Assembly: GCF_040026395.1 (NCBI RefSeq) | Contig: NZ_CP157278.1 | Span: 5,456,001-5,520,000, forward strand | Direction: 5' to 3' | DNA from: Pedobacter lusitanus | GTDB taxonomy: Bacteria > Bacteroidota > Bacteroidia > Sphingobacteriales > Sphingobacteriaceae | DNA: 64,000 bases | Shown here: positions 7,675 through 61,686 of the stretch, in pieces | How positions within the stretch are numbered: the first letter of the stretch is position 1 | Layout of the letters: each line of letters begins with the position of its first letter | The notes under the pieces: generated by a model | What the model saw: the letters and a program-made list of their open reading frames with translations, nothing else | What the model was told of the DNA's origin: nothing | The model's database searches: none | Made by a program: the position numbers and the translations under genes

Positions 7675-7678
7675 GATT

Positions 7679-9372: not shown

Positions 9373-9628
9373 AGTTTATGTTTTGATAGGTTAGATTTTT
9401 GATAAATGTTGTTATTGTTTAATTTAATAAACTTTTAATAAATGTAATGAAAAACATATTTATTGTAGAAAAATAAAATACGTGTTATTTGTTCTTGTTT
9501 TAATGTAAAATTGAATTATTGGTTTTTAATGCATGATAAAGCCGAATTAGAGATTAAGAGATTTTGATTCAGGAATATTTCAGATATGATTTTGCTTAAA
9601 TAGCTGTTATCTTTAATAAAAAAGGACA

Positions 9629-10117: not shown

Positions 10118-10130
10118 TTGGTTATGAAGA

Positions 10131-11174
10131 TTAATTAATTATTTGTAGACTACTCAATTCTTGCTTAAATGTTTTTCTGTTCTTTACAGTGATTATGATA
10201 TGCAATGCAACGTATAAATATTCAATCGTAATTATTTGATCTTTGTTTTGGCTATAGCAATTAAAATGCTCTATGGTTTTACAAGAATCCTCGGGGATAT
10301 ATTTAAATTCAATTTTTAATTCTGCTTTAATAATGGCATTGACAATAATGCTATTGTCGATCATTTCATATATGAAAAAATCATCATCATAGGGTTGAAT
10401 TAATAATGGTTTGAAGATTAATTGTTTGTTCTTTGTTTTTTGTGTGAAATAAGAATAAACAGTTTTTTTATTACTGTTATTCAGGGAATCAAATACATCT
10501 GTTTTTAAGACTTCGAAATCTAGATTTTCTGCAAGCCAATCTTCATTTATAAAACTAATTTCAGTTGCGTGTGCAGCAATAAATTCTTCGACAGATTGAA
10601 AATAATTTATTCTGATTTGTAATAAATCACATTCGGCTATTAGAGATCTCTCTAATGTTTTCTTATCTGATCCAGCAAAATCACTATGGTTTTTACTAAT
10701 TAAAGTAACTTGTTTTTGATGAGTATTTTCACAGTATTGTTTAATAGTTAGCCAAATTAATGTATCTCTAGCTTCGTATTTTTCTCCTGCCGGCTTCTGT
10801 CTCTTGATACACCTTTTAATAATCTCAGGAAGAAAATCATTATTAATGGGAATGACTTTTTCCTTTTTAATATTAAGACGCCGCTTGATATAAAGCTCAT
10901 ATTTTTCAACCTCTAAATTAATATCAATCGTAGGTGGTGAATTATGTATTGTTTTATCTATTAATGCTAAATTTAATTCATTTATGTTAGTACGAATTTT
11001 AGATTGTCGTTGTTGAAGTGCTCTTAAATACAGCTCTTTAGTTTCATCAAGTACTATTTGTGGGAGGACTATTGAGGAATTTGTTTTGATTAAATAATCA
11101 TTCAGAAGATCAAAATATTTCGATCTAAGTAGAATATCATCTCTATATATATTAGAATCAAGTATCACATCCAT
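10131..11174 (-). CDS. Solitary PIN-like (DUF4935-type) nuclease
   Basis: Protein of 347 residues whose first half looks like a PIN ribonuclease fold: Asp6 in VILDSN, Glu44 in VLDETKEL, Asp137 in ARDTLIWL and Asp165 in NHSDFAG give the four acidic positions expected. The second half has no motif I recognise. There is no antitoxin-like gene directly upstream or downstream, so it is not a standard VapC pair; DUF4935-type PIN proteins often occur singly. It is visibly more AT-rich than its neighbours, which suggests acquisition. RNase activity and a role in stress or defence are inferences. Confidence 0.7.
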   Translation of the reverse strand: MDVILDSNIYRDDILLRSKYFDLLNDYLIKTNSSIVLPQIVLDETKELYLRALQQRQSKIRTNINELNLALIDKTIHNSPPTIDINLEVEKYELYIKRRLNIKKEKVIPINNDFLPEIIKRCIKRQKPAGEKYEARDTLIWLTIKQYCENTHQKQVTLISKNHSDFAGSDKKTLERSLIAECDLLQIRINYFQSVEEFIAAHATEISFINEDWLAENLDFEVLKTDVFDSLNNSNKKTVYSYFTQKTKNKQLIFKPLLIQPYDDDFFIYEMIDNSIIVNAIIKAELKIEFKYIPEDSCKTIEHFNCYSQNKDQIITIEYLYVALHIIITVKNRKTFKQELSSLQIIN

Positions 11175-11290
11175 TAACCATAAACAATGTGATTGAAGTT
11201 ATGTTGATGTTTTTTGCAAAATTTCCAGAGGCAAAATTATACTTGTGTCGAATTGAAAATAATCATCAGAACAATATGAACTCTTTAAGC

Positions 11291-11337
11291 AAAAAAACAC
11301 CTTGATAAAATGAATTAATCCAAGGTGTTTCTTTTTT
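11291..11337. terminator. Bidirectional terminator
   Basis: AAACACCTTG/CAAGGTGTTT (11295-11304 and 11321-11330) with A residues on the left and CTTTTTTG on the right. On the minus strand it ends the phosphatidylserine decarboxylase-like gene. Confidence 0.75.
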
Positions 11338-11365
11338 GTGATTAGGTCTTGATCTGATTTTTTTT

Positions 11366-12634
11366 CTAGGTTATCACAGTTGCGATTTTTGATTTTAATG
11401 GAATATTGCTGGAATCAAGCCCCGGAGTCTGTCCATGCATATCAAATACCAGTTTGACCTGTGGTCCAAAGAATAGGCAATGAGTAGAACCTCCAAAATG
11501 GAACATCCCTAGTTGTTCTCCTTTTTTGACATGCTGACCTTCATAAACTGTAATCTGACAGGAAGAAACCTCGGCCATTCCAACTGGCATGACACACATC
11601 AGCCCGATCGCAGGATTATCGGCCTCTATAAATATCAGCGCTCTTGTGGCAAGTTCAGTGATGTAGCCTTGTGAGTCATTCGGACCGGCAGGATCATAGC
11701 CTTCTGACAATGCCTCGGCATAATAAGTACCATCCTGTACATAGGCTTTTACAATTTTCCCGCTTACAGGGCTATGCCAGCGATGATAACTTAAAGCGCT
11801 TAAAAAAGCCTGATAAACTGTTCCTCCGATAAAATTTTCCAGCAGTGGGTCATTGGCCATCATATGTTCCAGGGAATATGGTTGTGCTTTAATCCAGAAT
11901 TTGTCATGCTGTTTTACCTGATGGGCGATTCTGTAGGGCGCAGATTCACATGCATTTGCTATAACGGCATCATTATCCGGATCTGCCAGAGGCCGCTGGC
12001 CGTCTCTGAATTCTCTGGTAAAGAAGTCATCCCAGGATTTAAATCCGTGATAGGGCAGGGAGGGGTCGCATTTAAATTCTTTATCAAAATCGGGCATTGC
12101 TTTTTTAGCATCTGCACCAAACCATCCTGTTTTAGGATCTTCATTCAATACATACTTTGAATCATTGGAGCACAGAAAAATTGACCATTCGGTCAGGATT
12201 CTCTTTAATTGCCAGTTGACTTTTTCATTTAAAAAAGCGGCATAACCGGCGGTAGTACCCATAGACCAGTCCAGAATAGCGTTAATAGGAAAACCGACCA
12301 ATCCTGTTTCATTGAATTCCGGGGCTTTGGTCATTATTCTGTTGATCAGCCTTAACATCAAATGATAGTTTCTGACCTGTGGTTGTCCGGCGGGATTGTT
12401 ATTAAAAGGCGGTTTGCGCGGAACCTCCTCGAACATGAGATGGAACCACATAAAGATTTCCGGATCATCTTCTATTAATTCCTTAAATTCTTCAATTACA
12501 GGGAGCAAAGGATGTTTATCCTTTTCGACTTCAGCAATTAAATCATTTAACCATTTTTCCAGGATAGTCTGATCGGATGGAAGCCATCTGCCGACACGGA
12601 AGGCTTGTAACTTTTTGTTAGCTGTTGTTTTCAT
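11366..12634 (-). CDS. Phosphatidylserine decarboxylase-like protein
   Basis: Proenzyme of 422 residues in the long two-part class of phosphatidylserine decarboxylases. An N-terminal helical extension (about 1-170) precedes the catalytic part. Visible motifs are DDFFTREFRDGQRPL, YHRWHSPVSGKI and, near the end, MFHFGGSTHCLFF, where GGST replaces the usual LGST self-cleavage site; cleavage there would give a pyruvoyl group on Ser. Classical family reaction: phosphatidylserine to phosphatidylethanolamine plus CO2. This long class often sits outside the normal pss-psd operon, and no phospholipid gene is next to it here, so another substrate is possible. Confidence 0.82.
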   Translation of the reverse strand: MKTTANKKLQAFRVGRWLPSDQTILEKWLNDLIAEVEKDKHPLLPVIEEFKELIEDDPEIFMWFHLMFEEVPRKPPFNNNPAGQPQVRNYHLMLRLINRIMTKAPEFNETGLVGFPINAILDWSMGTTAGYAAFLNEKVNWQLKRILTEWSIFLCSNDSKYVLNEDPKTGWFGADAKKAMPDFDKEFKCDPSLPYHGFKSWDDFFTREFRDGQRPLADPDNDAVIANACESAPYRIAHQVKQHDKFWIKAQPYSLEHMMANDPLLENFIGGTVYQAFLSALSYHRWHSPVSGKIVKAYVQDGTYYAEALSEGYDPAGPNDSQGYITELATRALIFIEADNPAIGLMCVMPVGMAEVSSCQITVYEGQHVKKGEQLGMFHFGGSTHCLFFGPQVKLVFDMHGQTPGLDSSNIPLKSKIATVIT

Positions 12635-12862
12635 AAATGCTTGTTTTGCTATATGAAATTAGGCAAACCAATGAAAAACAATAAAGGTTGTTCCCGTTCA
12701 TTTTCTGTTCATTTTAGTAGAATGTAAAATGTTTGTATTCTGTTTATCAGTGTAATACGTTTTAGATATCGTTACAAAGAACAGGGGATTTGATTTAGAT
12801 GTGCTGTTTTTATTCCGGTATGCTGAAGAAGAAAAACCCGGGTATTTTTGTTGTATAAAACA

Positions 12863-12896
12863 AAAACTGCCTATGATAAGTATCATAGGCAGTTTT
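12863..12896 (-). terminator. Terminator of the Hsp70-like gene, in a 331-bp gap
   Basis: A 16-bp perfect inverted repeat (12863-12878 and 12881-12896). On the minus strand it is followed by TTGTTTT and lies 70 bp past the stop of the Hsp70-like gene. The rest of 12635-12965 shows no gene that I can support. Confidence 0.75.
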
Positions 12897-12965
12897 AATG
12901 AAAATCAGCTCAGTTTATTATACAGGATTATTACTTGGCTTCTTGTGTTCGAATTCCAGCTCAGC

Positions 12966-14237
12966 TTAGTCGGCATCAAACAAATAACCGCTATAAGCCA
13001 GTCCTTTTGCAACGCTGGTAAAGTTGTCTCCTGAGTTTACCGGGATGTGAGGGAATTTATTTCTGAACAGGTTTTGTACACCTCCAACCAGTGAGCTTCC
13101 ACCAGTTAGAAACAAACTGTCGATCTCTTCTGCTTTAATGTTGTTTTTCAGCATGAACTCATCCAGATAGACACTGATTTTATTAATATCTTTTTCGATT
13201 ACAGCAGCATATTGTTCTTTAGAAACTTCTTCATCGATCTCTATTTCCATATTGGAATAGCTAAACTGAGATACCGGCTCATCTGACAGGGTGATCTTTG
13301 TTTTTTCTATAGAACGGAATACGGAATAACCCAGGTTGTTTTCAATAAGGGTGATCAGGTTTTTAAATTTGCGGTCTTTTTTAGAATAATGATAATAATC
13401 CTGTAAGTCTTTCTGTATTCTGAGTCCGTTGAAAAAGTTCATTTTGTCCCAGGTACAGATATTGGCAAAAAGTGACATCGGAACGGTCAGGATTTTGCCT
13501 GGAGTGGCTTCATATAAAGTGTTTTTACCAAAGTAAGGTGTCCCTTTATCCCACATAAATGCTGAATCAAAACTGTCACCGCCAATATAAATACCACCGG
13601 AAGCAATCATATCATTTCTTCTGTCTTTATTGCCTACATTATCCGGGTCGAGAATCAGGTAAGTGAAATCTGTTGTACCTCCACCTAAATCGGCTACAAG
13701 TACCTTTTCCTTCTTTTTGATAGTCTTCTCGTAGGCAAATGCAGCTCCGATAGGTTCAAACTGGAAACGTACTTCATTAAAGCCTGCATTTTCTGCTGCT
13801 TTACTTAAACGGGTTTGCGCAAGTGTATCTTTTGATGTACTGTCATCATCAAAAAATACAGGTCTTCCGATAACTGCTTTCTGACAATCGTATCCAATAA
13901 TTTCATCTGCTTTGGTCTTCAGATCCTTAAGAATTAATGCGACAAGATCTGATGCATTGTATCTTTTGTTATGTATCCGTGTTTCTATAAAGCTGCTTCT
14001 TGATAAGATTTGCTTGATGGATTTGATAAACCGGCCTTTCATACCATCACTCAGGTAAGCATCAATGGCGTTTTCACCTACTACATAGTTTAATGGCTGT
14101 GTTGCACTTTGTTCCTGTTGAAAATACAACAGGGAAGGGACTGTAATTGTACTGATGATTTCATTTTTTTCTTCATCATAAATAGAAAGAGCAGAATTGG
14201 TTGTTCCAAAATCAATTCCATATAGAAACTTACTCAT
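12966..14237 (-). CDS. Hsp70-family actin-like ATPase (YegD-like)
   Basis: Chaperone-like ATPase of 423 residues. The phosphate-1 loop GIDFGTTNSALSIYD opens the protein, the phosphate-2 loop is VLVADLGGGTTDFTY, and the adenosine motif is LFLTGGSSLVGGVQ. Length covers only the nucleotide-binding domain; there is no DnaK-type substrate-binding domain, as in YegD. Start set at ATG 14237 (MSKFLYGIDFG) because the frame upstream of it adds 20 unlike residues. No DnaJ or GrpE partner nearby. Cellular client unknown. Confidence 0.88.
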   Translation of the reverse strand: MSKFLYGIDFGTTNSALSIYDEEKNEIISTITVPSLLYFQQEQSATQPLNYVVGENAIDAYLSDGMKGRFIKSIKQILSRSSFIETRIHNKRYNASDLVALILKDLKTKADEIIGYDCQKAVIGRPVFFDDDSTSKDTLAQTRLSKAAENAGFNEVRFQFEPIGAAFAYEKTIKKKEKVLVADLGGGTTDFTYLILDPDNVGNKDRRNDMIASGGIYIGGDSFDSAFMWDKGTPYFGKNTLYEATPGKILTVPMSLFANICTWDKMNFFNGLRIQKDLQDYYHYSKKDRKFKNLITLIENNLGYSVFRSIEKTKITLSDEPVSQFSYSNMEIEIDEEVSKEQYAAVIEKDINKISVYLDEFMLKNNIKAEEIDSLFLTGGSSLVGGVQNLFRNKFPHIPVNSGDNFTSVAKGLAYSGYLFDAD

Positions 14238-14496
14238 TGCGAAAGGGAAATGTTGTTTTATAATATTTTTTCTGTAGGCAATTCTCCGTTCAATCATTTA
14301 TAAAATGATCCGGGGAGATTTTACAGCTGTATTAAGATTGATATTCTTGTTGATATACGCTGTTTTAGCGCGTGCAAAGGTAGATTATTAGAATAATATC
14401 TGGGTTAAATTTGTGCAATTTGATTTAAAAATTAAAAGAAGCTGATTTTTTAAGGTTAGGAGTTGAAAAGAAGGTAGTTGTATTTCAAGATATCTG

Positions 14497-14538
14497 TTGC
14501 TATCTGTTTGCATATTTATCTACATTTGCCAATTGGCA
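14497..14538 (+). promoter_or_regulatory. Promoter with overlapping operator of the HTH/S24-like gene
   Basis: TTG (14497-14499), 21-nt spacer, TACATTTG (14521-14528, a perfect TAnnTTTG). The perfect palindrome TGCCAATTGGCA (14527-14538) covers the end of the -7 box and the expected start of transcription, about 20 bp before the ATG. This is a good candidate for autorepression by the gene product. Confidence 0.6.
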
Positions 14539-14556
14539 TAAATTACCTGAATTGAA

Positions 14557-15246
14557 ATGGATATAATCAAAAAAGTAAACGATATCGCAGTAGAATTTTT
14601 TGATGATAATAACTCGAGGTTCGCTTCTAAAATGGGAACGAGTGAAACCAATATCAGGAATTACCGGAGTAAAATTATTCCAAAGGTAGATTTCATAGTC
14701 AGATTGTGTAATGAACTCGAAATAAGTCTGGAGTGGATGTTTAATAACTCGGGCCCGATGAGGGTCATTCAAACAGAAACTTTAAAACCTGTTGCGGGAC
14801 AGCCGGTCATTCAAACAGAGCATAGAAAGGATGAGGGGGTACCACTGTATGATAGTAGTGCACAGTTAAGTCTGGTTGATCTATTTGAAGGGCATGGAAG
14901 TATAATAGATTATATCACTATACCTGGCCTTCCTAAAAGTGATGGTGCTCTGCATATCAAAGGGGATAGTATGTATCCTTTGTTGAAAAGCGGAGATATC
15001 GCTATTTATAAAAAAGTAAGGAATATTGAAGATGGGATTTTCTATGGTGAAATGTATCTGCTTTCTGTAAATATAGACGGGGATGATGCCACTATGGTAA
15101 GATATATTCAGAAATCTGATCTTGGAGTGGAATATGTCAGGTTAGTCAGTCAGCATATCAATCACTCCCCAAAAGATATGCACCTTAAACATATTAAAGC
15201 GCTGGCGCTGATTAAGGCGAGTATCCGTATCAATAGCATGCATTAA
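14557..15246 (+). CDS. HTH / S24-like (LexA-CI type) transcriptional regulator
   Basis: Regulator of 229 residues. The N-terminal domain is an HTH (SRFASKMGTSETNIRNYRSK, then LCNELEISLEWMF). The C-terminal half resembles peptidase S24: LHIKGDSMYPLLKSGDIAIY supplies the Ser-bearing GDSM loop. At the place where LexA and CI have the catalytic Lys (V-K-R) I read M-V-R-Y, so Arg may replace Lys and self-cleavage may be lost; alignment is by eye. Similar proteins are phage or stress repressors. It has its own promoter with an overlapping palindrome. No phage gene adjoins it directly; the next gene is an unknown protein. Confidence 0.8.
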   Translation: MDIIKKVNDIAVEFFDDNNSRFASKMGTSETNIRNYRSKIIPKVDFIVRLCNELEISLEWMFNNSGPMRVIQTETLKPVAGQPVIQTEHRKDEGVPLYDSSAQLSLVDLFEGHGSIIDYITIPGLPKSDGALHIKGDSMYPLLKSGDIAIYKKVRNIEDGIFYGEMYLLSVNIDGDDATMVRYIQKSDLGVEYVRLVSQHINHSPKDMHLKHIKALALIKASIRINSMH

Positions 15247-15426
15247 TAGCACGCATTAATTGCATAATTTAATTTAACATACAGGTCTGCACGGTATTTT
15301 CTAATGCATCGTACACTAAACAGGAATGTTTTTTAGTTGAATTTAGTAGATCGGATTCCATTATTCAATGGAATAATTGTTTTAGCTTTAATAGACAAAA
15401 CAACTCAAACCTTAACAAACCAGATT

Positions 15427-16380
15427 ATGCAAACACAAACTATTGCTACCAAAAGAGCTGCACAGGATGTAGGCCAAAGGATTAGTGTGGAGCTGTCGGA
15501 TTATTTGAAAAGTGGATTTAAGCAGAGATTTCCTGAGGAAAAGACTGCTGTATATCTTTCAAAAGAGACTATTTTGAAGTCTTTTGAGCATTCTGATAAG
15601 ATTTCCGGAATCAGATTTATGTATGGTTTTGAAAATGCGGATGATCCTGAATCAAGAGTATTGCTGCTGATGCCATGCAATATAACTTCAATGCATCTCT
15701 CTATTCCGAATATTATGGTAGAGTATAAGGGTTATCTGACTGATAAGGGTACCTGGGTAAGTCTGGAGAGGAGCTGGGAGCTTTTATACAATCATACTTT
15801 ACGATTCAGTGCTTACTACCCTCATCATAATTATAATAAAATAATGCGTGGTTCATTTATTGGGATCAGAAGTCTGCTCTCTTTATTGGATACCGAAGGA
15901 TGTGTGGGTATCAATTTTAATTTTGGTTATGATGATACTATCTCAGATATATCTATCAAAAACAAGCCTGTTTTTGAAGCCGTAAATTCATGGGGGGATG
16001 GTCTGGATGTGTTTGATTTCACTATGCCTTGTCCTCCGACATGTTCTCCAACTGATCCAAGATCGGTTGGTCATCATACTGAAAATATAAGCAAAAGCTA
16101 TTCTCATCCGGATAGTTTAAATCTGAATACTCATTTCCGGGATGAATATCTGTTAAAATACAATGATAACGGCCCGCTCGTTGAAATGTATTATTCTGTC
16201 AGCCCTGCTATAAGTGAAAAACTCAATGCTGTTCTGGATAGTAACAGCATTGAAGGGCATGCACACAGGTTACAGATACAAGACTTTAATAACCTGGTTA
16301 ATACGGGTAATTATGGTGAGGCAAAAATCGTCTTTGAACGTATTGTAAAGGAAATGATGGACATTTATCTATTCCAGTAA
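15427..16380 (+). CDS. Conserved-looking protein of unknown function
   Basis: Soluble protein of 317 residues with no signal peptide or membrane helix and no motif I recognise. Start taken as ATG 15427 (MQTQTIATKRAAQDVG); the TTG at 15337 would add a hydrophobic stretch that looks like untranslated leader, and a promoter-like TAGCTTTA lies there. A Pro/Cys segment (FTMPCPPTCSPTDPRS) in the last third could bind metal. It follows the HTH/S24-like gene on the same strand by 180 bp and might be its target. Confidence 0.6.
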   Translation: MQTQTIATKRAAQDVGQRISVELSDYLKSGFKQRFPEEKTAVYLSKETILKSFEHSDKISGIRFMYGFENADDPESRVLLLMPCNITSMHLSIPNIMVEYKGYLTDKGTWVSLERSWELLYNHTLRFSAYYPHHNYNKIMRGSFIGIRSLLSLLDTEGCVGINFNFGYDDTISDISIKNKPVFEAVNSWGDGLDVFDFTMPCPPTCSPTDPRSVGHHTENISKSYSHPDSLNLNTHFRDEYLLKYNDNGPLVEMYYSVSPAISEKLNAVLDSNSIEGHAHRLQIQDFNNLVNTGNYGEAKIVFERIVKEMMDIYLFQ

Positions 16381-16389
16381 GATTATATC

Positions 16390-16420
16390 TTCAGCATTCT
16401 GTATCCTGCAGAATGCTGAA
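16390..16420. terminator. Hairpin between convergent genes
   Basis: Perfect 12-bp stem TTCAGCATTCTG/CAGAATGCTGAA with a 7-nt loop, in the 40 bp separating the unknown protein from the SDR gene. T tracts are weak on both sides. Confidence 0.5.
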
Positions 16421-17320
16421 TTAAATTGCTTTTGAAGCAATCCACTCTGAAACAGATTGAGCTGCAGGTTTCCATCCCAATAATTTACGGGCATGCACAG
16501 CGCGGACACGACTGTTTGAAGCTATGGCAAATCTTGCCCAGTCCCCCAGTTCAGCTATTGCCTCTGCTACCGGCCAGCTGATCGTTTTACCGCCAAATCC
16601 CAGTGCATGGCTGACATATCCGGCAATATCGCCGTAAGACTCTTCTCCATTTTCAGCATAGAAATAAGAGGCTGAAGCTGCATTTTCCAGGGCAAGAAGA
16701 TATAAATTGGCTAAATCTGCTATATGTACATTGGACCAGCGGTTAAGCCCTTTTCCAACATAGATGCCAGCACCCGCTTCTTTTGATTTTCTAAAGATCA
16801 CTGGCAACTGATCACTCTGGACATCCAGCCCCAAAGCATCACCATATACCATTGTTGGTACAATGACTATGGATCTGACCCAGCTATTAACTCCTGCACG
16901 ACGCACCAGATCATTGATAGCGACTCTTTCTTCTCTGATATCCATTGGTTTAAATGGGGTTTCTTCAGTGAAGATTTCTGCAGATGTTGAGTCACCGCGG
17001 GCATCATCACCCACAACGCTTGATCCGGAAGTATGAATAAAGGCCTTTCCCGTTCCTTTCAGTGCTTCAATAAAAGTTTCAACAGCAATTCTGTGATCAG
17101 AGTTGGCTGTGTTAATAACTGCGTCTGCTTTTTTAGCCTGTGTGATTAATATTTCTGTATCATTCAATGTACCAATTACGGGTGTAATTCCCAGTGATAA
17201 AACAGCATCTGCTTTTTCTTTGCTGCGCACCACGCCGGTCACCTGATGACCTGCATCGATTAATATTTTTGCTACTGAACCACCTATATAACCTGTAACT
17301 CCGGTCAGAAAAACTTTCAT
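16421..17320 (-). CDS. NAD(P)-dependent epimerase/dehydratase (extended SDR)
   Basis: Rossmann-fold protein of 299 residues. The nucleotide motif GVTGYIGGSVAKIL starts at residue 7, followed by DAVINTANSDHR and the TSGSSVVGD region after strand 5. The classical YxxxK pair is not obvious, which is common among atypical SDRs of the NmrA or RfbD-like type. It may act on a sugar nucleotide or a small carbonyl compound; substrate unknown. Monocistronic, divergent from the acetyltransferase gene. Confidence 0.8.
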   Translation of the reverse strand: MKVFLTGVTGYIGGSVAKILIDAGHQVTGVVRSKEKADAVLSLGITPVIGTLNDTEILITQAKKADAVINTANSDHRIAVETFIEALKGTGKAFIHTSGSSVVGDDARGDSTSAEIFTEETPFKPMDIREERVAINDLVRRAGVNSWVRSIVIVPTMVYGDALGLDVQSDQLPVIFRKSKEAGAGIYVGKGLNRWSNVHIADLANLYLLALENAASASYFYAENGEESYGDIAGYVSHALGFGGKTISWPVAEAIAELGDWARFAIASNSRVRAVHARKLLGWKPAAQSVSEWIASKAI

Positions 17321-52739: not shown

Positions 52740-55700
52740 ATGAAATTAAGATATTCTGGTTTACTTTTTTCTTCCTTGTTGATGGTGACAGGTGGTGTGT
52801 TGGCACAGGTTCCTCAGGATACGGTGTTGAATGCATATACCGGCCAAACTGAGATTACCGCTAAACGGCGGATTACACTTAAGTCTGGATTTCGTATTCC
52901 TGCGGGAAAAAAAGTAAGGATTTATACTGGTGCAAGTTTTGGGAAATGGGTTACTATTTCGAGTAAGCCAAGTACTGATCAGAATTATATACTGACCAGG
53001 ATATTTAAAAAGCCTGGTATAAAAGATGATGCTGCTGCGAGCTCGAATGCTTATAATACGGGTGAAGTTAACCAGAGTATACAATACTTTGATGGCTTGG
53101 GCCGTCCGCTACAAACGGTAACGGTACAGGGTAGTCCCAGTTTTGCTGATGTAGTGCAGCCTGTTGTTTATGATGCTTTTGGACGTGAGGCGGTAAAGTA
53201 TCAGCCTTATGCTATTGGGAGCAACGGGGGTGGGTATCGAGGTAGCGGGGTAACTGAACAAGGGGCTTTCTATACAACGCCTCCGGCGGGTATCGCAGCA
53301 ACAGCTAATGCTTATGGGGTAACTGTTTTTGAGTCTTCACCCTTGAACCGTGTTTTAGAACAGGGTGCACCTGGTGTTGCATGGCAACCAGTTGCTGGTA
53401 ATACTACCGGGCATACTCAGAAGATTGAGTATGGAACTAATGCTGCTGAGGTAAAACTTTGGGTGGTGAATACAACTGGTGCCTCGGCTAGCTCTAATTA
53501 TGCTGCAGGGACATTATATAAAACGACGACAAAAGATGAGAACTGGGTTGCTGCGGATTTAAAAGCAGGGACAGTAGATGAGTATAAAGATTTTGAAGGC
53601 AGAGTGGTTTTAAAACGTGTGTGGGAAAGTGACGCGCAAGGTCTTTCTACATATTATGTGTATGATGATCTGGGCAATTTGCGCTATGTATTGCCTCCGG
53701 GAGTTGGAAGTATCAGCACTTTTTCTGAGAGTGATGATGTCTATAAGCAGTTTATTTACGGGTATCATTATGATGGCAGGAAGAGACTGGTAGAAAAGAA
53801 AATTCCGGGCAAAGGTCAGGAATCTATGGTGTATAATACATTGGATCAGGTGATTTTGACCCGGGATGCGAATCAGGGAGCAGGTCAGTGGTTGTTTACC
53901 AAATATGATGCTTTTGGGCGGGTAGTGAGTTCGGGTATATATAGCGGAGAGAATGATAGAACTACTTTACAAGGAGTTGTCAATGCACAGACTGTACTTT
54001 GGGAGAAAAGAGTTGCTGGTGGTATAGGTTATGATAATCTTTCTTTTCCAGAGGTTTCTTCGATAAGTTCTTATCATGTGATCAATTATTATGATGATTA
54101 TAGTTTTCCGGAGAATACTTTTGGTGAGCCATCAGGAAGCCAGATGAAGGGTGACCGGGTTAAATCGTTATTAACCGGGACTAAAGTGACTACTTTGGGG
54201 ACGACAAATTCATTGCTTTCAGTTCATTATTATGATGATGAAGGTCGGGTGATTCAGAGCAAAAGTGAGAACCATCTGGGTGGAAAGGATATTATAGATA
54301 ATACCTACAATTTTGCGGGTGAGCTGACAGCGAGTACACGTAGTCATACCACTGGTAGTACGACCACAGAGATTGCCAATCGTTATTTCTATGACCATAT
54401 GGGGCGTAAGATTGCGACACTGGAAAAGATTAACAAGGATGCCGAAGTGGTGTTGAGTCAGCTGGATTATACTGAAACCGGACAGCTGCTGAAGAAACAG
54501 TTACATAGTACGGATAACGGATCGAACTATCTACAACATACAGATTATGCCTATAATGAAAGAGGCTGGTTGAACAAGGCTACAGGCAAAGAGTTCAATC
54601 TGCAGCTGAAATATACTGAGGGTGATGTGCCTCAATGGAATGGTAATATTTCTGGTCAGGTTTGGGGTAGAGGAGAAGGTAAATTTGATAATACGTTCAA
54701 ATACAGTTATGATAAACTAAACAGGTTGACTTCAGCGGTATCACCAGGTTTGGGAGAGAACATCATTTATGATGTGATGGGAAATATCAAGATGCTGAAC
54801 CGGGAAGGTCAAGTGATCAATAACTATAGTGGATATACCGGGAATCAGCTGACTAAAATAGAGGGGGCTACCAATAGCACTTATAGTTACGATAGCAATG
54901 GAAACTTAATCACGGATAGCGGGAAGGGGATAACGCTGACTTATAATTACCTGAATTTGCCGGAGAAAGTTACGGGTAATAAGACTTTGAGTTATACTTA
55001 TGATGCGACTGGGAACAAACTGAGAAAAACAAGTGGATCGGAGGTTACGGATTATATCGGCGGCATTCAGCACAAGACTGATGGAAGTATTGATTTCATT
55101 GCTACTGAGGAAGGATTAGCCAGGAATAACGGCGGAACTTACAGTTATGAATATAACCTGAGTGATCATTTGGGCAATGTGCGTTATAGTTTTAACAAGC
55201 ATCCGGTGACGGGTCTGTTACAACCAATACAGAGTGATGATTATTATGCGTTTGGACTAAGGAAAGTTGTAAGCGCGGGAACTAATAAATATCTTTATAA
55301 TAAGAAAGAGTTACAGGAGGAGTTGGAGGAGTACGATTACGGGGCAAGGTTCTATGATCCGGTGATAGGAAGGTGGAGTGTAATAGATCCTAAAGCACAA
55401 CTTCTTGAAATGGCTTCACCTTATGTATATGCATTGAACAGTCCTTCTTCCTTTATTGATAAAGATGGTGAACTTCCAATTTATATTGGAGGAAATACAA
55501 GTAATGATAGTGAACGCAATAGTAAAACATATTGGGATAGTCAATTATTGGCAACGATAGCTGGTTCTGGGATTCCTAACCCTGGCCATACCGCCATGTT
55601 CGTTGATGGCAATAGATATTTATATAGATTTGCTAGCAAAAAGGAGGTTAGGTACTCTGGATTAATCGAAGGACAGACTGCTGAAGGTCGAAGAGAAGCC

Positions 55701-56201
55701 GGCTATGAGGTGGGAAAGGGTGATTTTAAGAGAATTCTTTCTCAACTTGAAAGAGATCCTAAAACAGGGAAGATTGTTGAAAAAATACAAATATATACTC
55801 ACAGTAGGGGAGCTGCATTTGGTGCAGGATATACGGAAGCTTTATTGGAAATGATTAAACAAAATGCATCAGAATTTGCAGATGCAGTACATGAAATTGA
55901 TTATGTCTTAAATATGGCACCTCATCAGTCTGATGCAATAGATGCCCCGGCAGATGTCAAATCATATTCTATTGATCATGATTGGGATATGTTATCGGGC
56001 GATGACATGGGTAATAATATTGGCTTTAAGACAAATACAAAATCAGGTAGCGCAGGTTTGTCACATAAAAATATGACTTTTGTAAATGAAGTAAGAGCTT
56101 TTATCAGCTCCTTTCAGGGAAGTAATGGGGATAATAGTAAGTTAATAAGTAACTTTATTAAGCAAATGAGTGCATATGGTATTAATGTAACTGTAAATTA
56201 A
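52740..56201 (+). CDS. RHS-repeat protein with C-terminal predicted hydrolase toxin
   Basis: Polymorphic toxin of 1153 residues. A signal peptide (1-22, GGVLAQ) and a DUF6443-like N-terminal segment (IQYFDGLGRPLQTVTVQGSP) precede many YD repeats (YDAFGR, YDDLGNLRYVLP, YNTLDQVILTRDANQ). The RHS core ends with YDYGARFYDPVIGRWSVIDP at about 865-885. The variable tip follows from about 912. It has a lipase-like nucleophile elbow YTHSRGAAFG (Ser1022), DHDWD (Asp1079-1083) and SHKN (His1109), so an alpha/beta-hydrolase acting on lipid is my inference. The immunity gene starts 2 bp after the stop. Confidence 0.9.
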   Translation: MKLRYSGLLFSSLLMVTGGVLAQVPQDTVLNAYTGQTEITAKRRITLKSGFRIPAGKKVRIYTGASFGKWVTISSKPSTDQNYILTRIFKKPGIKDDAAASSNAYNTGEVNQSIQYFDGLGRPLQTVTVQGSPSFADVVQPVVYDAFGREAVKYQPYAIGSNGGGYRGSGVTEQGAFYTTPPAGIAATANAYGVTVFESSPLNRVLEQGAPGVAWQPVAGNTTGHTQKIEYGTNAAEVKLWVVNTTGASASSNYAAGTLYKTTTKDENWVAADLKAGTVDEYKDFEGRVVLKRVWESDAQGLSTYYVYDDLGNLRYVLPPGVGSISTFSESDDVYKQFIYGYHYDGRKRLVEKKIPGKGQESMVYNTLDQVILTRDANQGAGQWLFTKYDAFGRVVSSGIYSGENDRTTLQGVVNAQTVLWEKRVAGGIGYDNLSFPEVSSISSYHVINYYDDYSFPENTFGEPSGSQMKGDRVKSLLTGTKVTTLGTTNSLLSVHYYDDEGRVIQSKSENHLGGKDIIDNTYNFAGELTASTRSHTTGSTTTEIANRYFYDHMGRKIATLEKINKDAEVVLSQLDYTETGQLLKKQLHSTDNGSNYLQHTDYAYNERGWLNKATGKEFNLQLKYTEGDVPQWNGNISGQVWGRGEGKFDNTFKYSYDKLNRLTSAVSPGLGENIIYDVMGNIKMLNREGQVINNYSGYTGNQLTKIEGATNSTYSYDSNGNLITDSGKGITLTYNYLNLPEKVTGNKTLSYTYDATGNKLRKTSGSEVTDYIGGIQHKTDGSIDFIATEEGLARNNGGTYSYEYNLSDHLGNVRYSFNKHPVTGLLQPIQSDDYYAFGLRKVVSAGTNKYLYNKKELQEELEEYDYGARFYDPVIGRWSVIDPKAQLLEMASPYVYALNSPSSFIDKDGELPIYIGGNTSNDSERNSKTYWDSQLLATIAGSGIPNPGHTAMFVDGNRYLYRFASKKEVRYSGLIEGQTAEGRREAGYEVGKGDFKRILSQLERDPKTGKIVEKIQIYTHSRGAAFGAGYTEALLEMIKQNASEFADAVHEIDYVLNMAPHQSDAIDAPADVKSYSIDHDWDMLSGDDMGNNIGFKTNTKSGSAGLSHKNMTFVNEVRAFISSFQGSNGDNSKLISNFIKQMSAYGINVTVN

Positions 56202-56203
56202 TT

Positions 56204-56497
56204 ATGAAAAAAATATTTACATATATCTTGGTTTTAGTGTTAAATATTGGGTTGTATTTTTGCCTACAAATTATAGCATCATTTGTCGAATTTGGTTTAT
56301 TTGGTAGTGGAAAAAGTAGCGATAATGCAACAATTTTGGTTTCACTTTTTTTTGCACTATTACAGATATTGTTACTCTTGTTTTTATACAAAAAGAAGAT
56401 CTTTTTAAAAGATAAGCCAATATTAATTTTGAATATATTATTTATAATTTGTCTATTCCTATATTTTGTAGTTTATCTGTTTATAACTTGTTGCTAA
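56204..56497 (+). CDS. Predicted membrane immunity protein of the RHS toxin
   Basis: Protein of 97 residues with three hydrophobic helices (about 4-25, 42-62, 70-95). Its ATG is 2 bp after the RHS stop, the standard place of a cognate immunity gene, and a diverged paralogue holds the same place behind the second toxin-tip copy at 60990. Membrane location suits protection from a membrane-attacking toxin. Family unknown to me. Confidence 0.75.
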   Translation: MKKIFTYILVLVLNIGLYFCLQIIASFVEFGLFGSGKSSDNATILVSLFFALLQILLLLFLYKKKIFLKDKPILILNILFIICLFLYFVVYLFITCC

Positions 56498-56586
56498 TTA
56501 TCGATAAGAAAAACTATTAGTTTGATCGTTTAGGTAAATATCTAGCTCAGTGAAATAATATGATGTATTTGATGGAAGTTCTTGTT

Positions 56587-57143
56587 ATGATAAAATATTA
56601 TTCACGAATAATATTACAGTAGTTTTTTTTATCGTTAATTACGATTCTCTTTTTTAATTGTTGTCTACGTGGAGATAGTAAAATTGATTGTCACTCAGCT
56701 AATTTGGATAGTATTGTTCAAACGAAAGAGTATAAATTGATTATGCGTTCTGCATTAAATGATTTAAAAAATCTAGGAGATGTAAATCAAAGAAATCCTA
56801 TTATGGATAGTTCTTTTATTACTTCAAGTAAACTTGATATTTTAATAATGACAAGACCAAATGTCTTCTGTAAATTCTGGAGAAAACCGTTAAGGAATTA
56901 AATTTGGATCAGGTCCAGATTATTCAGGGAACATTAAAAAATAAAACGTGGTATTTTTCATAGAATAGATTACCTGATATTCCAGAGGCTATTATCACTG
57001 TAACTAAGAAGATGGAGAGTGGGAAAATAGTTAACAATTCCTTTGAAGTATTGTCCAAAGAAGGAAGAGATTTTGTATTGAATGGAAGAATGGTTGATAA
57101 AAAGAGATGTGATATTGATATGAAATACTGGTTTGGAAATTAG
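56587..57143 (+). pseudogene. Broken lipoprotein gene, probable lost immunity gene
   Basis: ATG 56587 opens MIKYYSRIILQ, then TAG at 56620 interrupts the signal peptide; the same frame continues FFLSLITILFFNCCLRG, a lipobox-like end, and VQTKEYKLIMRSALNDLKNL up to TAA near 56900. Sequence continues in another frame (KTVKELNLDQVQIIQG) with a further TAG, ending at 57143 (DIDMKYWFGN). At least three lesions, so a decayed gene. Its place in the RHS downstream region suggests a former immunity lipoprotein. Confidence 0.6.
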
Positions 57144-57292
57144 ACTGCAGAATGAGTTTCTTGGGTTTGGTAATAAGAAGATATAATATGCGACACTGAC
57201 TAAAGAAAAGTTATAGAGTCGTAACTCAGAATGACAACCTGTTAAAAAGCGAACAAAATAAAAAAAGTGCTGTTCCAGAGATGCTAATTAAT

Positions 57293-57898
57293 ATGAGATA
57301 TTTTATTTTATTCCTCTCTGTAGTCATGCTAGGTTCATGCTCAAATAGAGAGAGGTGTACATTAAACTTTAATCAATATTCGAACGATGATTTTTTGAGA
57401 TTGTGGAATGATGAAACCAACAGGGCTTTGCTTCAAAAAGGCGATGAGAAATCTATTCGTCTTCTTGATTTTGAAAAGAAAAATAATGCGTCTGTTTTCA
57501 GTAGAAAGAGTTTTTTTGAAATCTTCAAAGAGAAGGAAGACAACAATAACATTCAGTTCAGTGAACTTTCGATATTCGAGATTTTATATACGGGCGAAAA
57601 AAATCAAAGTATCAAGTATTTAATAAATTCTTGTGGCGAAGAGTCTATCATTGTGAAATATAGCCTGGGAATAAATGGTTGGATTGTTTCAGATAAATAT
57701 AAAATTAATATTGAAAAGGTCGAACACCTCTATAAAGTTCTAAAGGAAAAAGATAAAGAAGTATACTGGGGAGGTAATATTACTGAAGTTGCTTGTCTAA
57801 CCAGAATTAAAGGATCTAATCAGGTGAATGTTCAAGTAATTGAATCATTGAATAGATTGCAATTTGATGCTGTACTTGGATTGCGGGCAAAAGATTAA
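57293..57898 (+). CDS. Lipoprotein of the RHS cassette region (immunity candidate)
   Basis: Intact frame of 201 residues with a lipobox (SVVMLGSCSNRE, Cys17). Start ATG 57293 opens the signal peptide; the in-frame ATG 57281 adds four residues. The mature part is charged, with YSLGINGWIVSDKYKINIEK. I recognise no family. Size, lipoprotein nature and position between other toxin/immunity remnants make it an orphan immunity candidate; no toxin frame precedes it directly. Confidence 0.6.
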   Translation: MRYFILFLSVVMLGSCSNRERCTLNFNQYSNDDFLRLWNDETNRALLQKGDEKSIRLLDFEKKNNASVFSRKSFFEIFKEKEDNNNIQFSELSIFEILYTGEKNQSIKYLINSCGEESIIVKYSLGINGWIVSDKYKINIEKVEHLYKVLKEKDKEVYWGGNITEVACLTRIKGSNQVNVQVIESLNRLQFDAVLGLRAKD

Positions 57899-58028
57899 AA
57901 TAAGTTTTTAGGATCGGGTTGTATATACAGATTATAAAAATGAACCAGAAATGATACTGACAACACGTTGATGAGACTATAAGAGCTGAATGTGTATTCA
58001 AAGCTATAATCCCACAAGTAAATTTGAT

Positions 58029-58502
58029 ATGAATATCGTAAAAAAAATAGGTTTCGGATTGCTGCTCTTACTAGTCGGATTCGGCTTTTATAAACTAGCT
58101 AAACTTTATTCACCAGGAAGTTATCCTAATGCTGAAATATATGGTATTAGAGCAAGTGAAGGGAAAATAATTAATTCGATTAACAAATTTAAAGATGAAA
58201 ATCCAAAGTTTGTACCCCCAATTTCTTTTAATTTACAAGATGGTCGATTTAATGCTAACGATCATTGGTATGATGTCTATTTTTATTATCCGGAAAGTAA
58301 GGAAATTGTTCATGTTTGGACAAGACCAGATGGTTCGGGATCAACTACTATAGGTTTTGTAGGTGTTAATCAAGGTGATCGTTTGGGGAATTGGAAAGAT
58401 ATTAACAGAGATTTTAGCTCATCAGAAAATTCTATACAAAAAGACAGGTTTGAAAATTTAATTCTTAGTCCCATAAGGTACATTGTGGAAGCTAAACAAT
58501 AA
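58029..58502 (+). CDS. Membrane-anchored protein of the RHS cassette region (immunity candidate)
   Basis: Intact frame of 157 residues: N-terminal helix (IGFGLLLLLVGFGFYKLA) then a soluble domain with NDHWYDVYFYYPESKEIVHV and PDGSGSTTIGFVGVNQGDRL. Start ATG 58029 places the helix at the very N-terminus. Family unknown. The N-terminal anchor and location suggest an immunity function like its neighbours. The stop is followed at once by an orphan toxin-tail frame. Confidence 0.55.
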   Translation: MNIVKKIGFGLLLLLVGFGFYKLAKLYSPGSYPNAEIYGIRASEGKIINSINKFKDENPKFVPPISFNLQDGRFNANDHWYDVYFYYPESKEIVHVWTRPDGSGSTTIGFVGVNQGDRLGNWKDINRDFSSSENSIQKDRFENLILSPIRYIVEAKQ

Positions 58503-58730
58503 TTGTATGAAAAAAAACTCCGATTTATCTTCTGGTATTTGTTTCAAACTCCGCAAGACAAATCTTTTTTAACACTAATGCCTAATGTAAGATTTGATCG
58601 CATTGTTAAAAATAATCCAGGCGGTACATTATTTATCTTGCCGCAACCAAAACAGCAAAGAACAGGAACAGTCACTATATGGCCTTTATCACCTCCCGCC
58701 GTCTTACCTGGTAAAACCCCAAATCCATAA
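58503..58730 (+). pseudogene. Orphan RHS toxin C-terminal tail
   Basis: Open frame of about 75 codons without a proper start that ends 5 bp before the ATG of a membrane protein gene, the same layout as toxin tip plus immunity gene. From about 58578 it reads MPNVRFDRIVKNNPGGTLFI and then a Pro-rich end (PLSPPAVLPGKTPNP). No RHS core or secretion signal is attached. I regard it as the last part of a displaced toxin tip. Confidence 0.4.
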
Positions 58731-58735
58731 GCAAT

Positions 58736-59186
58736 ATGAAACTGCAAAAGATATCTATTATAGGCTTATTAACGCTTGTGTTGTTATTAAATATTATCAT
58801 TGGCCATATTTTACCACCAACGGGAATTTTGATCACTCCTCTTATAATATCAGTAATGATTGGACTAATCGTATTTACCGATAATGGTTTAAATGTTATT
58901 GAAAAATCAGTTCTTTCTTATTTGTATATAGGCTTATTTGTATATAGGACTAAATGATATTGGTATTAAACTTTTCTCGGGTGGCAGGCACGATATGGAA
59001 GGGGTTGGTTGGATACATACGATGCTTTTTATTGGATTAGTCCCTTGTTTTATTATGTTACTTATAGGTGTTTTTAGGGATAAGGATTCTTCTATTTGGC
59101 TTAAAGTTCTTAGCGTAATAATATTTGTATTATTGATTTATGCGCATCTTGAAATATTTGAAACGTTGGGTGTCGATGTAAGCTAG
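58736..59186 (+). pseudogene. Multi-helix membrane protein broken by a 16-bp tandem duplication
   Basis: ATG 58736 starts a membrane protein (ISIIGLLTLVLLLNIIIGHI). At 58917-58948 the 16-mer CTTATTTGTATATAGG occurs twice in tandem and the frame ends at TGA soon after (VYRTK). Removing one copy joins the frames: SVLSYLYIGLNDIGIKLFSG and on through IHTMLFIGLVPCFIMLL to the TAA at 59186, 145 codons including stop. So this gene was intact until a recent slipped duplication. It follows a toxin tail by 5 bp and is an immunity candidate. Confidence 0.7.
58917..58948. repeat. 16-bp exact tandem duplication
   Basis: Two abutting copies of CTTATTTGTATATAGG (58917-58932 and 58933-58948). Sixteen is not a multiple of three, so the copy number decides the reading frame of the surrounding membrane protein gene. 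Confidence 0.95.
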
Positions 59187-59302
59187 TGTCTCCTATTGTA
59201 AGTATTCATTGTACCACGTAGAACAAAACTAAAGCTTGATAATTAAGTGGTAGCATTCATCACACTGTCTCTAACTTATGTCGGGCTTTGTGTCGTTAAT
59301 GT

Positions 59303-59334
59303 AATAGGCTGCATATGTGTTCATGCAGCCTATT
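59303..59334. repeat. Cassette-border hairpin, copy A (in a 327-bp gap)
   Basis: AATAGGCTGCAT/ATGCAGCCTATT with an 8-nt loop. The same core (GGCTGCAT/ATGCAGCC, 8-nt loop) with a similar right flank (CAAGTTGT, then TTTGT) recurs at 60287-60352. It works as a terminator candidate after the preceding broken immunity gene. Confidence 0.7.
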
Positions 59335-59341
59335 ATTGTTT

Positions 59342-59530
59342 TTATACCTTCAAGTTGTATTTTTGTGTACCTAAAAACCTGCCTGCCTTCGCTTGGGCGA
59401 AGGAGAAATGAAACCTTCGCAACTTAGTTTCTGCTGTGGGGATACTTGTTTGCTTTATGAAGTTCGTTTTTTTCCGTTCAGCTTGAAAGAGGCGTTCATA
59501 AATTTCCATTACCTTGTCCAGCAGGTTATA
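59342..59530 (-). pseudogene. C-terminal remnant resembling an HTH regulator
   Basis: On the minus strand the frame DPYNLLDKVMEIYERLFQAE, followed by RKKTNFIKQTSI, resembles the closing helix common in Bacteroidota XRE-type regulators (a motif like IYERLLQAE). It stops at 59342. No HTH precedes it: the sequence upstream is the plus-strand toxin fragment. A 7-bp hairpin CCTTCGC/GCGAAGG with a TTGG loop (59386-59403) lies inside. Weak call; it may be chance. Confidence 0.3.
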
Positions 59531-59828
59531 TGGATCTGCAAGTATATTTGCCGATATTAAAGTTGTTGCAGGCGGTGGAGTAAATATTAGCAAATTTACA
59601 GGGGCAGGAAAAGATCCAGGTTGGAAGGGTGTGTCATTAGGAGTTAGTGTTGGAGTCGGAGCAGGTGGTAATTTGGGGGCGGTAAGCGCTACGTTATCCC
59701 GGACATGGCTATTAAATGATGTGAAGCCCACCACTCAAAGAAGTGTTCTTGATAAGGTATTTAACGCGCTAAATCCTGTGGATTCTGCTATAGCAACAGG
59801 AGCAACTGATAAAATAAAAAGGCTTTAA
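59514..59828 (+). pseudogene. Orphan RHS toxin C-terminal fragment, Gly/Val-rich
   Basis: About 104 codons without a proper start: KVVAGGGVNISKFTGAGKDP, WKGVSLGVSVGVGAGGNLGA, then VLDKVFNALNPVDSAIATGA. It ends with TAA directly followed by ATG of the next gene. Gly-rich runs of this kind occur before the ends of many Bacteroidota RHS tips. There is no RHS core upstream, so it is a displaced tip fragment. Confidence 0.45.
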
Positions 59829-60278
59829 ATGAATATAATGAGGTATTTACTGTATATTGTTTTGTTGATAGTTTTTTTTTACTCGATTTTTTATTATAAT
59901 CAAAAGTCAGGTAAAGAGACAGTAAAATTAAATGATTCTTTGAATAATAATGTATTATTTGAGGGAGTAGTCGTGAGAATAGAAAAATCAACTAACCATG
60001 CATTCGGTATAATTATGCTAAAGCATGTGAGATCTAGCGTTAATGAATTTAACAAACAGATTAAAGGAGGTATCTATCCTTATAGGATTACTGGGGATAC
60101 TGCAGAATTATATTGCACAGTTTCGGTTGATAGAAGATTAGGAGATTCAGTGAAAGTGGTTTCTAAAGATCTCACAATATACTATAATCCCCAAAAAAGC
60201 AAGGAAGAAGGTAGTCTTTATGTTATATCAGATCCGTATAATATAGATTATGTAAAAGAAAATACAGTGTTTAAGTAA
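59829..60278 (+). CDS. Membrane-anchored immunity candidate
   Basis: Intact frame of 149 residues that starts immediately after the stop of the toxin fragment (TAAATG). One N-terminal helix (about 5-20) is followed by a soluble beta-rich domain (GVVVRIEKSTNHAFGIIMLK, then YPYRITGDTAELYCTVSVD). No known family. The position directly behind a toxin tip argues for cognate immunity. Confidence 0.6.
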   Translation: MNIMRYLLYIVLLIVFFYSIFYYNQKSGKETVKLNDSLNNNVLFEGVVVRIEKSTNHAFGIIMLKHVRSSVNEFNKQIKGGIYPYRITGDTAELYCTVSVDRRLGDSVKVVSKDLTIYYNPQKSKEEGSLYVISDPYNIDYVKENTVFK

Positions 60279-60286
60279 GGTTACCT

Positions 60287-60352
60287 GTAGATCACAAAAC
60301 AACAACAGGCTGCATATCTGATTATGCAGCCTGTTGTTGTTTTGTGATCTAC
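60287..60352. repeat. Cassette-border hairpin, copy B (29-bp perfect stem)
   Basis: Perfect 29-bp inverted repeat (60287-60315 and 60324-60352) around an 8-nt loop, sharing its core with copy A at 59303. It separates the preceding immunity candidate from the second toxin-tip copy, 30 bp before the duplicated block begins. Strong enough to terminate transcription both ways. Confidence 0.85.
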
Positions 60353-60379
60353 AAGTTGTCTCTTTGTACTTACAGTCCA

Positions 60380-60987
60380 CCATGTTCGTTGATGGCAATA
60401 GATATTTATATAGATTTGCTAGCAAAAAGGAGGTTAGGTACTCTGGATTAATCGAAGGACAGACTGCTGAAGGTCGAAGAGAAGCCGGCTATGAGGTGGG
60501 AAAGGGTGATTTTAAGAGAATTCTTTCTCAACTTGAAAGAGATCCTAAAACAGGGAAGATTGTTGAAAAAATACAAATATATACTCACAGTAGGGGAGCT
60601 GCATTTGGTGCAGGATATACGGAAGCTTTATTGGAAATGATTAAACAAAATGCATCAGAATTTGCAGATGCAGTACATGAAATTGATTATGTCTTAAATA
60701 TGGCGCCTCATCAGTCTGATGCAATAGATGCCACGGCAGGTGTCAAATCATATTCTATTGATCATGATTGGGATATGTTATCGGGCGATGACATGGGTAA
60801 TAATATTGGCTTTAAGACAAATACTAAATCGGGTAAGGTAGGTGAGTCTCATAAAAATCAGACATTTGTTAATGAAGTTGGGGCTTTTATTAAATCCTTT
60901 CAGGAAAGTAATGGCGAAAATAGTAAGTTAATAGATGATTTCGCTAAACTAATGAGGTCATATGGTATTAATGTAACAGTAAATTAA
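60380..60987 (+). CDS. Orphan second copy of the RHS toxin tip
   Basis: From the ATG at 60382, 201 residues repeating the C-terminal part of the RHS protein, with no RHS core, signal or start of its own. The first 325 bp (60380-60704) are identical to 55594-55918; the rest has mounting differences (for example SGKVGESHKNQTF against SGSAGLSHKNMTF). The Ser elbow THSRG, the DHDWD motif and SHKN are all kept, so the fold should be active if attached. Without the core it cannot be delivered; I see it as a silent cassette. Confidence 0.7.
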
Positions 60988-60989
60988 TT

Positions 60990-61277
60990 ATGAAAAAAAT
61001 AATACTATATATTTTGACTTTCATGCTGAATGTGGCATTGTACTTTTTCCTGCAAATTATAGCATCATTCGTGCAATTTGGTCTACTTGGTAGTGGAGTG
61101 AGTAGTAATAATAAAACAATTTGGGTGTCACTTTCTTTTGCATTATTACAGATATCGCTATTATTTCTTTTGTATAAAAAGAAGATTCTTTTAAAAGATG
61201 GGGTAATATTGATCCTGAATGTATTGTGTGTAGTCTGTTTATCTTTATATTTCATAGTGGGTCTGTTCGGAACCTGA
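60990..61277 (+). CDS. Membrane immunity paralogue
   Basis: Protein of 95 residues with three helices, paralogous to 56204-56497: both share LQIIASFV, FALLQI and LLYKKKI/FLYKKKI segments but differ at many positions. It begins 2 bp past the orphan tip stop, the same spacing as in the main RHS locus. It would protect against the variant tip and may leave the host immune to kin carrying it. Confidence 0.7.
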   Translation: MKKIILYILTFMLNVALYFFLQIIASFVQFGLLGSGVSSNNKTIWVSLSFALLQISLLFLLYKKKILLKDGVILILNVLCVVCLSLYFIVGLFGT

Positions 61278-61336
61278 TCTTACGCTCATTTTTGCTTATA
61301 GTAATAGTATAAGTGAAGGAATCATTTTTCGCTATG

Positions 61337-61391
61337 ATAGTGTACACAAATCCTACGTCACACCATACCAAAATAAAAAAAAGTACACTAT
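61337..61391 (+). promoter_or_regulatory. Inverted repeat over a start codon
   Basis: ATAGTGTAC (61337-61345) and GTACACTAT (61383-61391) are perfect inverted arms 37 nt apart. The right arm covers the first bases of the ATG at 61390 and the A-rich segment between them, so a folded leader could hide the start of the next gene. The 61278-61389 space holds nothing else. Confidence 0.4.
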
Positions 61392-61686
61392 GAAAAATAG
61401 TAGATTTGGCGCTATAATTTTGTACTTATTATGGATAGGCTTGTGCTTAATTTTTAGTTTATATATTCCTGCCTTCAGTGCTGGCTCTGATTCAAGTGAT
61501 CCAGCTTCATTCGGATTACGGATTTATGCTATTATTGGTTTAGTTTGTGGTACATTTCTAATAAGTTTATCTAACATGTATTTCTTTAGGGAATGGGTCA
61601 AGAGATTTTGGTATATAAATGGTTCTATAACTCTAATCACAGGAGGGATAATTGTTTATTATATTGTGAAAATGAATAATCTGTAA
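61390..61686 (+). CDS. Small three-helix membrane protein
   Basis: Protein of 98 residues with helices at about 7-28, 44-62 and 74-93 (AIILYLLWIGLCLIFSLYI, YAIIGLVCGTFLISLSN, GSITLITGGIIVYYIVKMNN). Family unknown. It sits at the far end of the cassette region and may be another orphan immunity gene, but no toxin fragment precedes it. Confidence 0.5.
   Translation: MKNSRFGAIILYLLWIGLCLIFSLYIPAFSAGSDSSDPASFGLRIYAIIGLVCGTFLISLSNMYFFREWVKRFWYINGSITLITGGIIVYYIVKMNNL

Follow-up and report, generated by a model that had tools for sequence, protein, structure and literature searches.

What kind of locus is formed by a full rearrangement hotspot (RHS) gene and the run of small genes behind it at positions 52740 to 61686 of the Pedobacter lusitanus window? 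The window is the whole stretch of 64,000 nucleotides analyzed here (C1:5456001-5520000 of a 6.05-Mb single-contig genome), and feature coordinates below are window coordinates. A first-pass annotation of the letters had proposed that the RHS gene is followed by a store of toxin tips severed from their core, together with immunity genes. The reading favored here, with a probability of about 0.87, is indeed that of an RHS polymorphic-toxin locus carrying an orphan tip/immunity array, and sequence comparison shows that the DNA behind the RHS gene holds what is left of at least five further tip/immunity modules that elsewhere form the ends of full RHS genes. That displaced modules are a habit of RHS and contact-dependent inhibition (CDI) systems, as the annotation had stated, is borne out by published excerpts in which orphan rhs-CT/rhsI and cdiA-CT/cdiI arrays are described for both (Poole et al. 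2011, PMC3150448) and by those reporting recombination between main and orphan rhs genes under selection in Salmonella (Koskiniemi et al. 2014, PMC3967940). The cassette reading is supported, with corrections, and the kind of system is already known; the new parts are the host group, the protein families and a mosaic inside one of the tips.

The gene that heads the locus, as annotated, is a full RHS gene (52740-56201, forward strand) encoding 1153 residues with a DUF6443 domain, an RHS core and, by eye, a Sec-type N-terminus. Its product matches PF20041 (144.9 bits) and RHS_repeat (42.4 bits) in Pfam and the TIGR03696 Rhs core in NCBIfam, and a profile search of the whole genome found six DUF6443 RHS genes. 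The variable tip starts after about residue 880-914. This tip, called tip A (55461-56201, forward), is predicted with high confidence over 246 modelled residues to adopt a lipase-like alpha/beta-hydrolase fold, with Ser (in THSRG), Asp and His in the expected order; the order, which is one of sequence and not of geometry, is invariant across 31 alignment rows. Going by the model, tip A may be a lipase/esterase-type enzyme acting on membrane lipids. Lipase-like alpha/beta-hydrolase tips are also represented by the Tox-ABhydrolase toxins of RHS proteins in excerpts from PMC3482391, from which tip A differs in having THSRG instead of the GHSxG motif listed for Tox-ABhydrolase3; a related tip on contig C13 of genome G049 has GHSQG. 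No named toxin family for tip A appeared in the VIA-align and Foldseek lists, which gave no evidence against one either, and among Pfam families it has none of its own. In a protein search with the attached and orphan copies of tip A, 38 relatives were recovered, 36 of which carry DUF6443.

Directly behind tip A lies its cognate immunity-like gene (56204-56497, forward; 97 residues, three transmembrane segments by hydropathy), which starts 2 bp past the RHS stop. Relatives of this and the other pieces of the array were sought in 148 genomes, own genome counted in, among them G018, G049, G068, G080, G097 and G126, of which G049 belongs to the same genus; the protein P0039 (Pedobacter kyungheensis OC25_07870) is 100% identical to the G049 query. 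Linkage of a relative to RHS was called within the DNA stretch read, and some of these stretches stop at contig ends. In G080 a full RHS gene is followed by a relative of gene 57990 and then by a core end and an orphan tip A (53.7%), with a relative of 56204 (53.7%) starting 61 bp further on. A further search of genome contigs for related loci returned a single relative, in Limnovirga soli, and added little.

The clearest displaced module lies at 59531-59828 (forward), where a longer RHS tip is reduced to its final 98 residues, which are 88.8% identical to the end of a 1137-residue RHS frame in G049. The gene that follows (59829-60278, forward; 149 residues, one N-terminal transmembrane segment) is immunity-like and is 91.9% identical to the gene located 0 bp behind that same frame. 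At the DNA level, 59531-60374 matches the G049 RHS end at 753 of 844 nt (89%), the hairpin behind the gene included, and this match stops at 60374, two bases short of the next orphan. That hairpin is a perfect palindrome with 31-bp arms (60286-60353), terminator-like by eye and not listed by the terminator scan, and a similar one stands 3' of the same immunity gene in G049. A TTG at 59514 had been considered as the start of the severed tip and was rejected: similarity begins at 59531, and the fragment holds no in-frame ATG. A second AlphaFold2 model, of a full RHS protein with a 59531-type tip, reached a mean predicted local distance difference test score (pLDDT) of 54.7 and has long strands in the tip part, too weak to use. 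Just upstream of the fragment, a terminator-like hairpin with its tail occupies 59302-59530 (forward); parts of it recur behind other RHS modules and resemble both positions 13216-13300 of the 4694-kb locus (rhs4694), behind its last module, and the DNA behind the G049 immunity gene. Judged from these likenesses, the hairpin and tail may be a right-hand end that RHS modules have in common and could, as a weak lead, serve as right-hand homology in exchange.

The second displaced module is a copy of tip A itself. It spans 60377-60987 (forward), is devoid of an RHS core and lacks the first 45 of the 246 modelled residues; its first in-frame ATG (60382) corresponds to an internal Met of the intact tip. 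Since the orphan begins at modelled residue 46, it is without the first strand and helix of the fold, and it retains the THSRG, Asp and SHKN stretches. A TTG at 60334, tried as its start, was discarded, as it falls inside the palindrome and similarity exists only from 60377. Behind the orphan stands a paralogue of 56204, also immunity-like (60990-61277, forward; 95 residues). Together they form an 891-bp repeat in which the RHS 3' end and its immunity-like gene are compared with 60377-61267 (788 of 891 positions identical). The identity is unevenly distributed: only 3 differences occur in the first 445 nt (55594-56038), against 99 in the following 443 nt (56039-56481). From the codon at 55587 on, 31 tip codons differ, 12 of them silently (the first two at the repeat edge), and the immunity pair differs in 56 of 97 codons, 25 of them silently. 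The near-identity of the first part reaches silent sites and therefore points to recent recombination or conversion and not to protein selection alone. Which copy is older is not indicated by the nearest relatives, as P0001 agrees with the attached copy at 40/55 and with the orphan at 42/55 in the C-terminal part.

These two fragments account for two of the three core-less tips claimed by the first-pass annotation, each in amended form: the tip placed at 60380 stands with its similarity actually starting at 60377, and the one placed at 59514 holds only the last 98 residues of a tip, from 59531. The spacings of 0-5 bp between tips and following genes were exact (58730/58736, 59828/59829 and 60987/60990). 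The third claimed tip, an open reading frame (ORF) at 58503-58730 (forward), is unsupported, and its partner, described as one gene, consists of two overlapping frames (58736-58957 and 58938-59186). These frames make up a broken membrane-protein gene (58736-59186, forward) that is immunity-like by position only; both match one 148-residue ORF in G097 (35.6% and 50.6%), their sole match, which starts 677 bases from the contig start.

The decayed and solitary immunity-like genes that had been announced are present as well, and for four of them a relative immediately follows a full RHS gene. The decayed one (56623-57140, forward) is spread over several frames, and its pieces match at 39-48% a 183-residue gene in G049:C13 located 4 bp behind a 1712-residue RHS frame, the one with the GHSQG tip. 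The first solitary gene (57281-57898, forward) encodes a lipoprotein of 205 residues with a lipobox by eye; its own genome holds a 55% relative 1 bp past an orphan tip with an M91-peptidase domain, G018 holds a 27-28% relative immediately after a full RHS gene whose tip is likewise of the M91 type, and G068 holds a partial match. The second (57990-58502, forward; 170 residues, one transmembrane segment) has in G080 a relative of 58.8% identity that lies 7 bp past the full RHS gene, and for four of its six relatives the stretch read includes an RHS core upstream. For the last (61390-61686, forward; 98 residues), the same genome has a relative of 74% identity located 3 bp past its full RHS gene at 863 kb; the tip of that RHS gene is distantly related to tip A (33%, E 3e-9). 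Among the 13 non-self matches of 61390, six adjoin a core or a core end of RHS, followed in five of these cases by the core end of a next orphan. In five loci (L090, L091, L100, L101 and L102) that core end lies 25-28 bases past the relative of 61390, as if at a favored junction.

Taken as a whole, the array comprises eight immunity-like genes, 56204 counted, of which six are intact and two broken, together with two severed tips. All the immunity-like genes are on the forward strand, and apart from the 891-bp repeat they share no sequence similarity with one another. Relatives directly behind full RHS genes, in the own or same-genus genomes, were found for five of the eight; 56204 and its paralogue 60990 are tied through the RHS gene of the window itself, which brings the total to seven, the gene at 58736-59186 being the one not tied. 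As the annotation had sensed, the immunity-like proteins are unfamiliar: no curated cut-off was reached by the seven scanned against Pfam, the five scanned against NCBIfam or the 58938 piece added in a later Pfam scan. The outcome that would have undone the cassette reading, namely tips lacking homologues at RHS ends or small genes from unrelated families, did not materialize, given the 1137-residue frame of G049 and the 36 DUF6443-bearing relatives of tip A.

The other RHS loci of the genome provide a picture of how such arrays look when core ends are retained. The RHS genes of the window, of 3278 kb and of 4694 kb have core DNA that is 94-97% identical, and the similarity is lost at one point, window 55369-55390. 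Downstream of the RHS genes at 3278, 4694 and 3007 kb, orphan core ends number 6, 4 and 4, respectively, and behind each of them come an open tip frame and a small gene. Four of 17 scanned tips of this genome reach a Pfam toxin or peptidase cut-off (Tox-REase-7 and TNT on full genes, Scabin-like and M91 on orphans), and one further tip has an Ntox24 match just under it. Core-end matches occur in 62 of 99 genomes of the genus, about 375 by hand sum, with 21 in the own genome. One locus of this genome (L018, C1:3262000-3281000) contains a tandem duplication with a period of 6173 bp and 6183 identical bases (reverse-strand array coordinates 4861-11043 and 11034-17216); the unit comprises an RHS tip (Tox-REase-7), an immunity-like gene and a gene set with two proteins that look like tyrosine recombinases by eye, with an RHS core end at its bounds, and the duplication is either very recent or an assembly effect. 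In four of the five other RHS loci (L020-L023), the RHS gene has beside it or nearby another large gene whose end looks RHS-like by eye; this gene is upstream of the RHS gene in three loci and downstream in the fourth, and no such gene was seen adjoining the RHS gene of the window. The genome also holds a TssC gene of the T6SSiii variant of the type VI secretion system (T6SS) (PF17541, C1:5341906-5343195).

With these elements, a course of events may be proposed for the locus. The RHS shell would export the tip from the cell and deliver it into a competitor, and the membrane protein adjoining tip A would protect the producer. New tips would come in by recombination at the core end, and the displaced module would shift downstream, losing its start and core and then usually its tip. 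The immunity gene might be retained because kin still fire the old toxin, a proposal reminiscent of the V. cholerae T6SS, for which immunity genes are argued to persist after effector displacement in excerpts from Kirchberger et al. (2017, PMC5361080). Judging by the mosaic at 60377, exchange or conversion has also occurred inside a tip, with the C-terminal part and the immunity gene differing together. A more specific form of this idea, which we regard as rather unlikely, is that the catalytic part of the hydrolase stays constant and the C-terminal quarter is swapped with the neighboring three-transmembrane immunity gene as one specificity cassette; if so, the cell would alter who is immune and leave the enzyme of its weapon unchanged.

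A number of observations weigh against the reading of the locus as a toxin gene with its orphan array. The window array is without any core end, so that core recombination could no longer load these orphans, and orphan tip A has lost the first strand and helix of its modelled fold. The RHS protein has a Sec-type N-terminus, while the genome encodes a T6SSiii TssC. Several ties are loose: 8 of 12 relatives of 59829, 2 of 6 of 57990 and 7 of 13 of 61390 have no RHS core in the stretch read; the link of 57281 to a full RHS gene is made at 27-28% identity, and nothing in the G126 stretch with a match to it passed the tblastn cut-off; no tie to RHS was obtained for 58736-59186; and 58503-58730 has no relative in the 147 other genomes and no Pfam match. 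Nor is there an excess of promoters, with 5 sites against 4.66 expected over the whole window and 27 against 29.5 in a second scan.

The alternative that best survives, tentative as it is, holds that the array is a defensive immunity island, like a heterogeneous polyimmunity locus or a locus of acquired interbacterial defense, in which selection brought the immunity genes together and the tip pieces came along as passengers. Six intact immunity-like genes facing two truncated tips would fit it, and the locus is in any case more an immunity store than a tip store. A hydropathy comparison also leans this way, with membrane-type proteins in 8 of 8 window entries against 8 of 21 in the other arrays of the genome, a post hoc count with an author-set threshold, in which the 8 entries are seven genes with one family twice, 56623 is left out, and one of the 21, a lipoprotein by eye, stayed under the threshold. 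An island kept by selection is nevertheless hard to reconcile with tip fragments lying between the immunity genes and with two of these genes being broken, and no recombinase was found among the 10 + 6 scanned array and flanking proteins (4 flanking genes among them). Those same broken genes, together with the truncated tips and the absence of an RHS core downstream, would be expected from plain decay, in which displaced remnants have no present function; six immunity-like frames have nonetheless remained intact and orphan tip 60377 keeps its THSRG, Asp and SHKN stretches, which makes this account somewhat less probable still. That the small genes are ordinary membrane proteins standing beside an RHS gene by chance is very improbable and largely refuted: some relatives do lie away from RHS genes, but seven of the eight are tied to an RHS tip and the core-end count of the genus predicts a core end in only about 0.6% of 8-kb stretches, a purely arithmetic estimate.

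An RHS locus with an orphan tip/immunity array thus remains the favored reading, and its relation to known systems can be defined. In the excerpts from PMC3150448, rhs-CT/rhsI arrays likewise combine a full gene, its variable tip and an immunity gene with start-less downstream tip fragments and their immunity genes; the same tips occur on full genes of other strains, some orphans lack an upstream core, and orphans often, not always, share sequence with the main gene, the shared 445 nt lying here within the tip. The window array differs from those in its Bacteroidota host, in its DUF6443-type RHS protein and in having more solitary immunity genes than tips. The examples in the excerpts on those rhs-CT/rhsI arrays are from Proteobacteria. 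A literature search of open-licence PubMed Central found no paper on DUF6443, and orphan-rhs searches there, Bacteroidota included, gave none on Pedobacter RHS arrays among the titles and abstract starts of the matches listed. In Salmonella, as excerpts from PMC3967940 have it, the main gene and the orphan share 522 bp at 95%, comparable to the near-identical 445 nt seen here; these lie inside the tip, so that a crossover would alter only its C-terminal part and the immunity gene, unlike in Salmonella. The V. cholerae arrays of the PMC5361080 excerpts are placed in T6SS clusters, whereas the present one lies behind an RHS gene with the TssC gene elsewhere in the genome. Polyimmunity loci, as presented in excerpts from Zhang et al. 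(2012, PMC3482391), contain unrelated immunity proteins in one run never interrupted by toxin cassettes, in contrast to the window array, which tip fragments interrupt at 59531 and 60377. Orphan immunity genes in Bacteroidota are a trait shared with the recombinase-associated acquired interbacterial defense (rAID) systems in excerpts from PMC12247911, from which the locus departs by the presence of tips and by the lack of a tyrosine recombinase among the scanned proteins.

The orphan tip/immunity architecture known from Proteobacteria therefore extends to Bacteroidota and to RHS proteins of the DUF6443 type, here in a genus rich in RHS core ends. The locus contributes several families of immunity-like proteins and two of tips that have no match in Pfam or NCBIfam, and most of them have an assigned partner. 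Finally, tip A and its orphan copy constitute a natural pair with near-identical 5' parts and diverged C-termini and immunity genes, which could be used to test which part of the tip sets immunity specificity.

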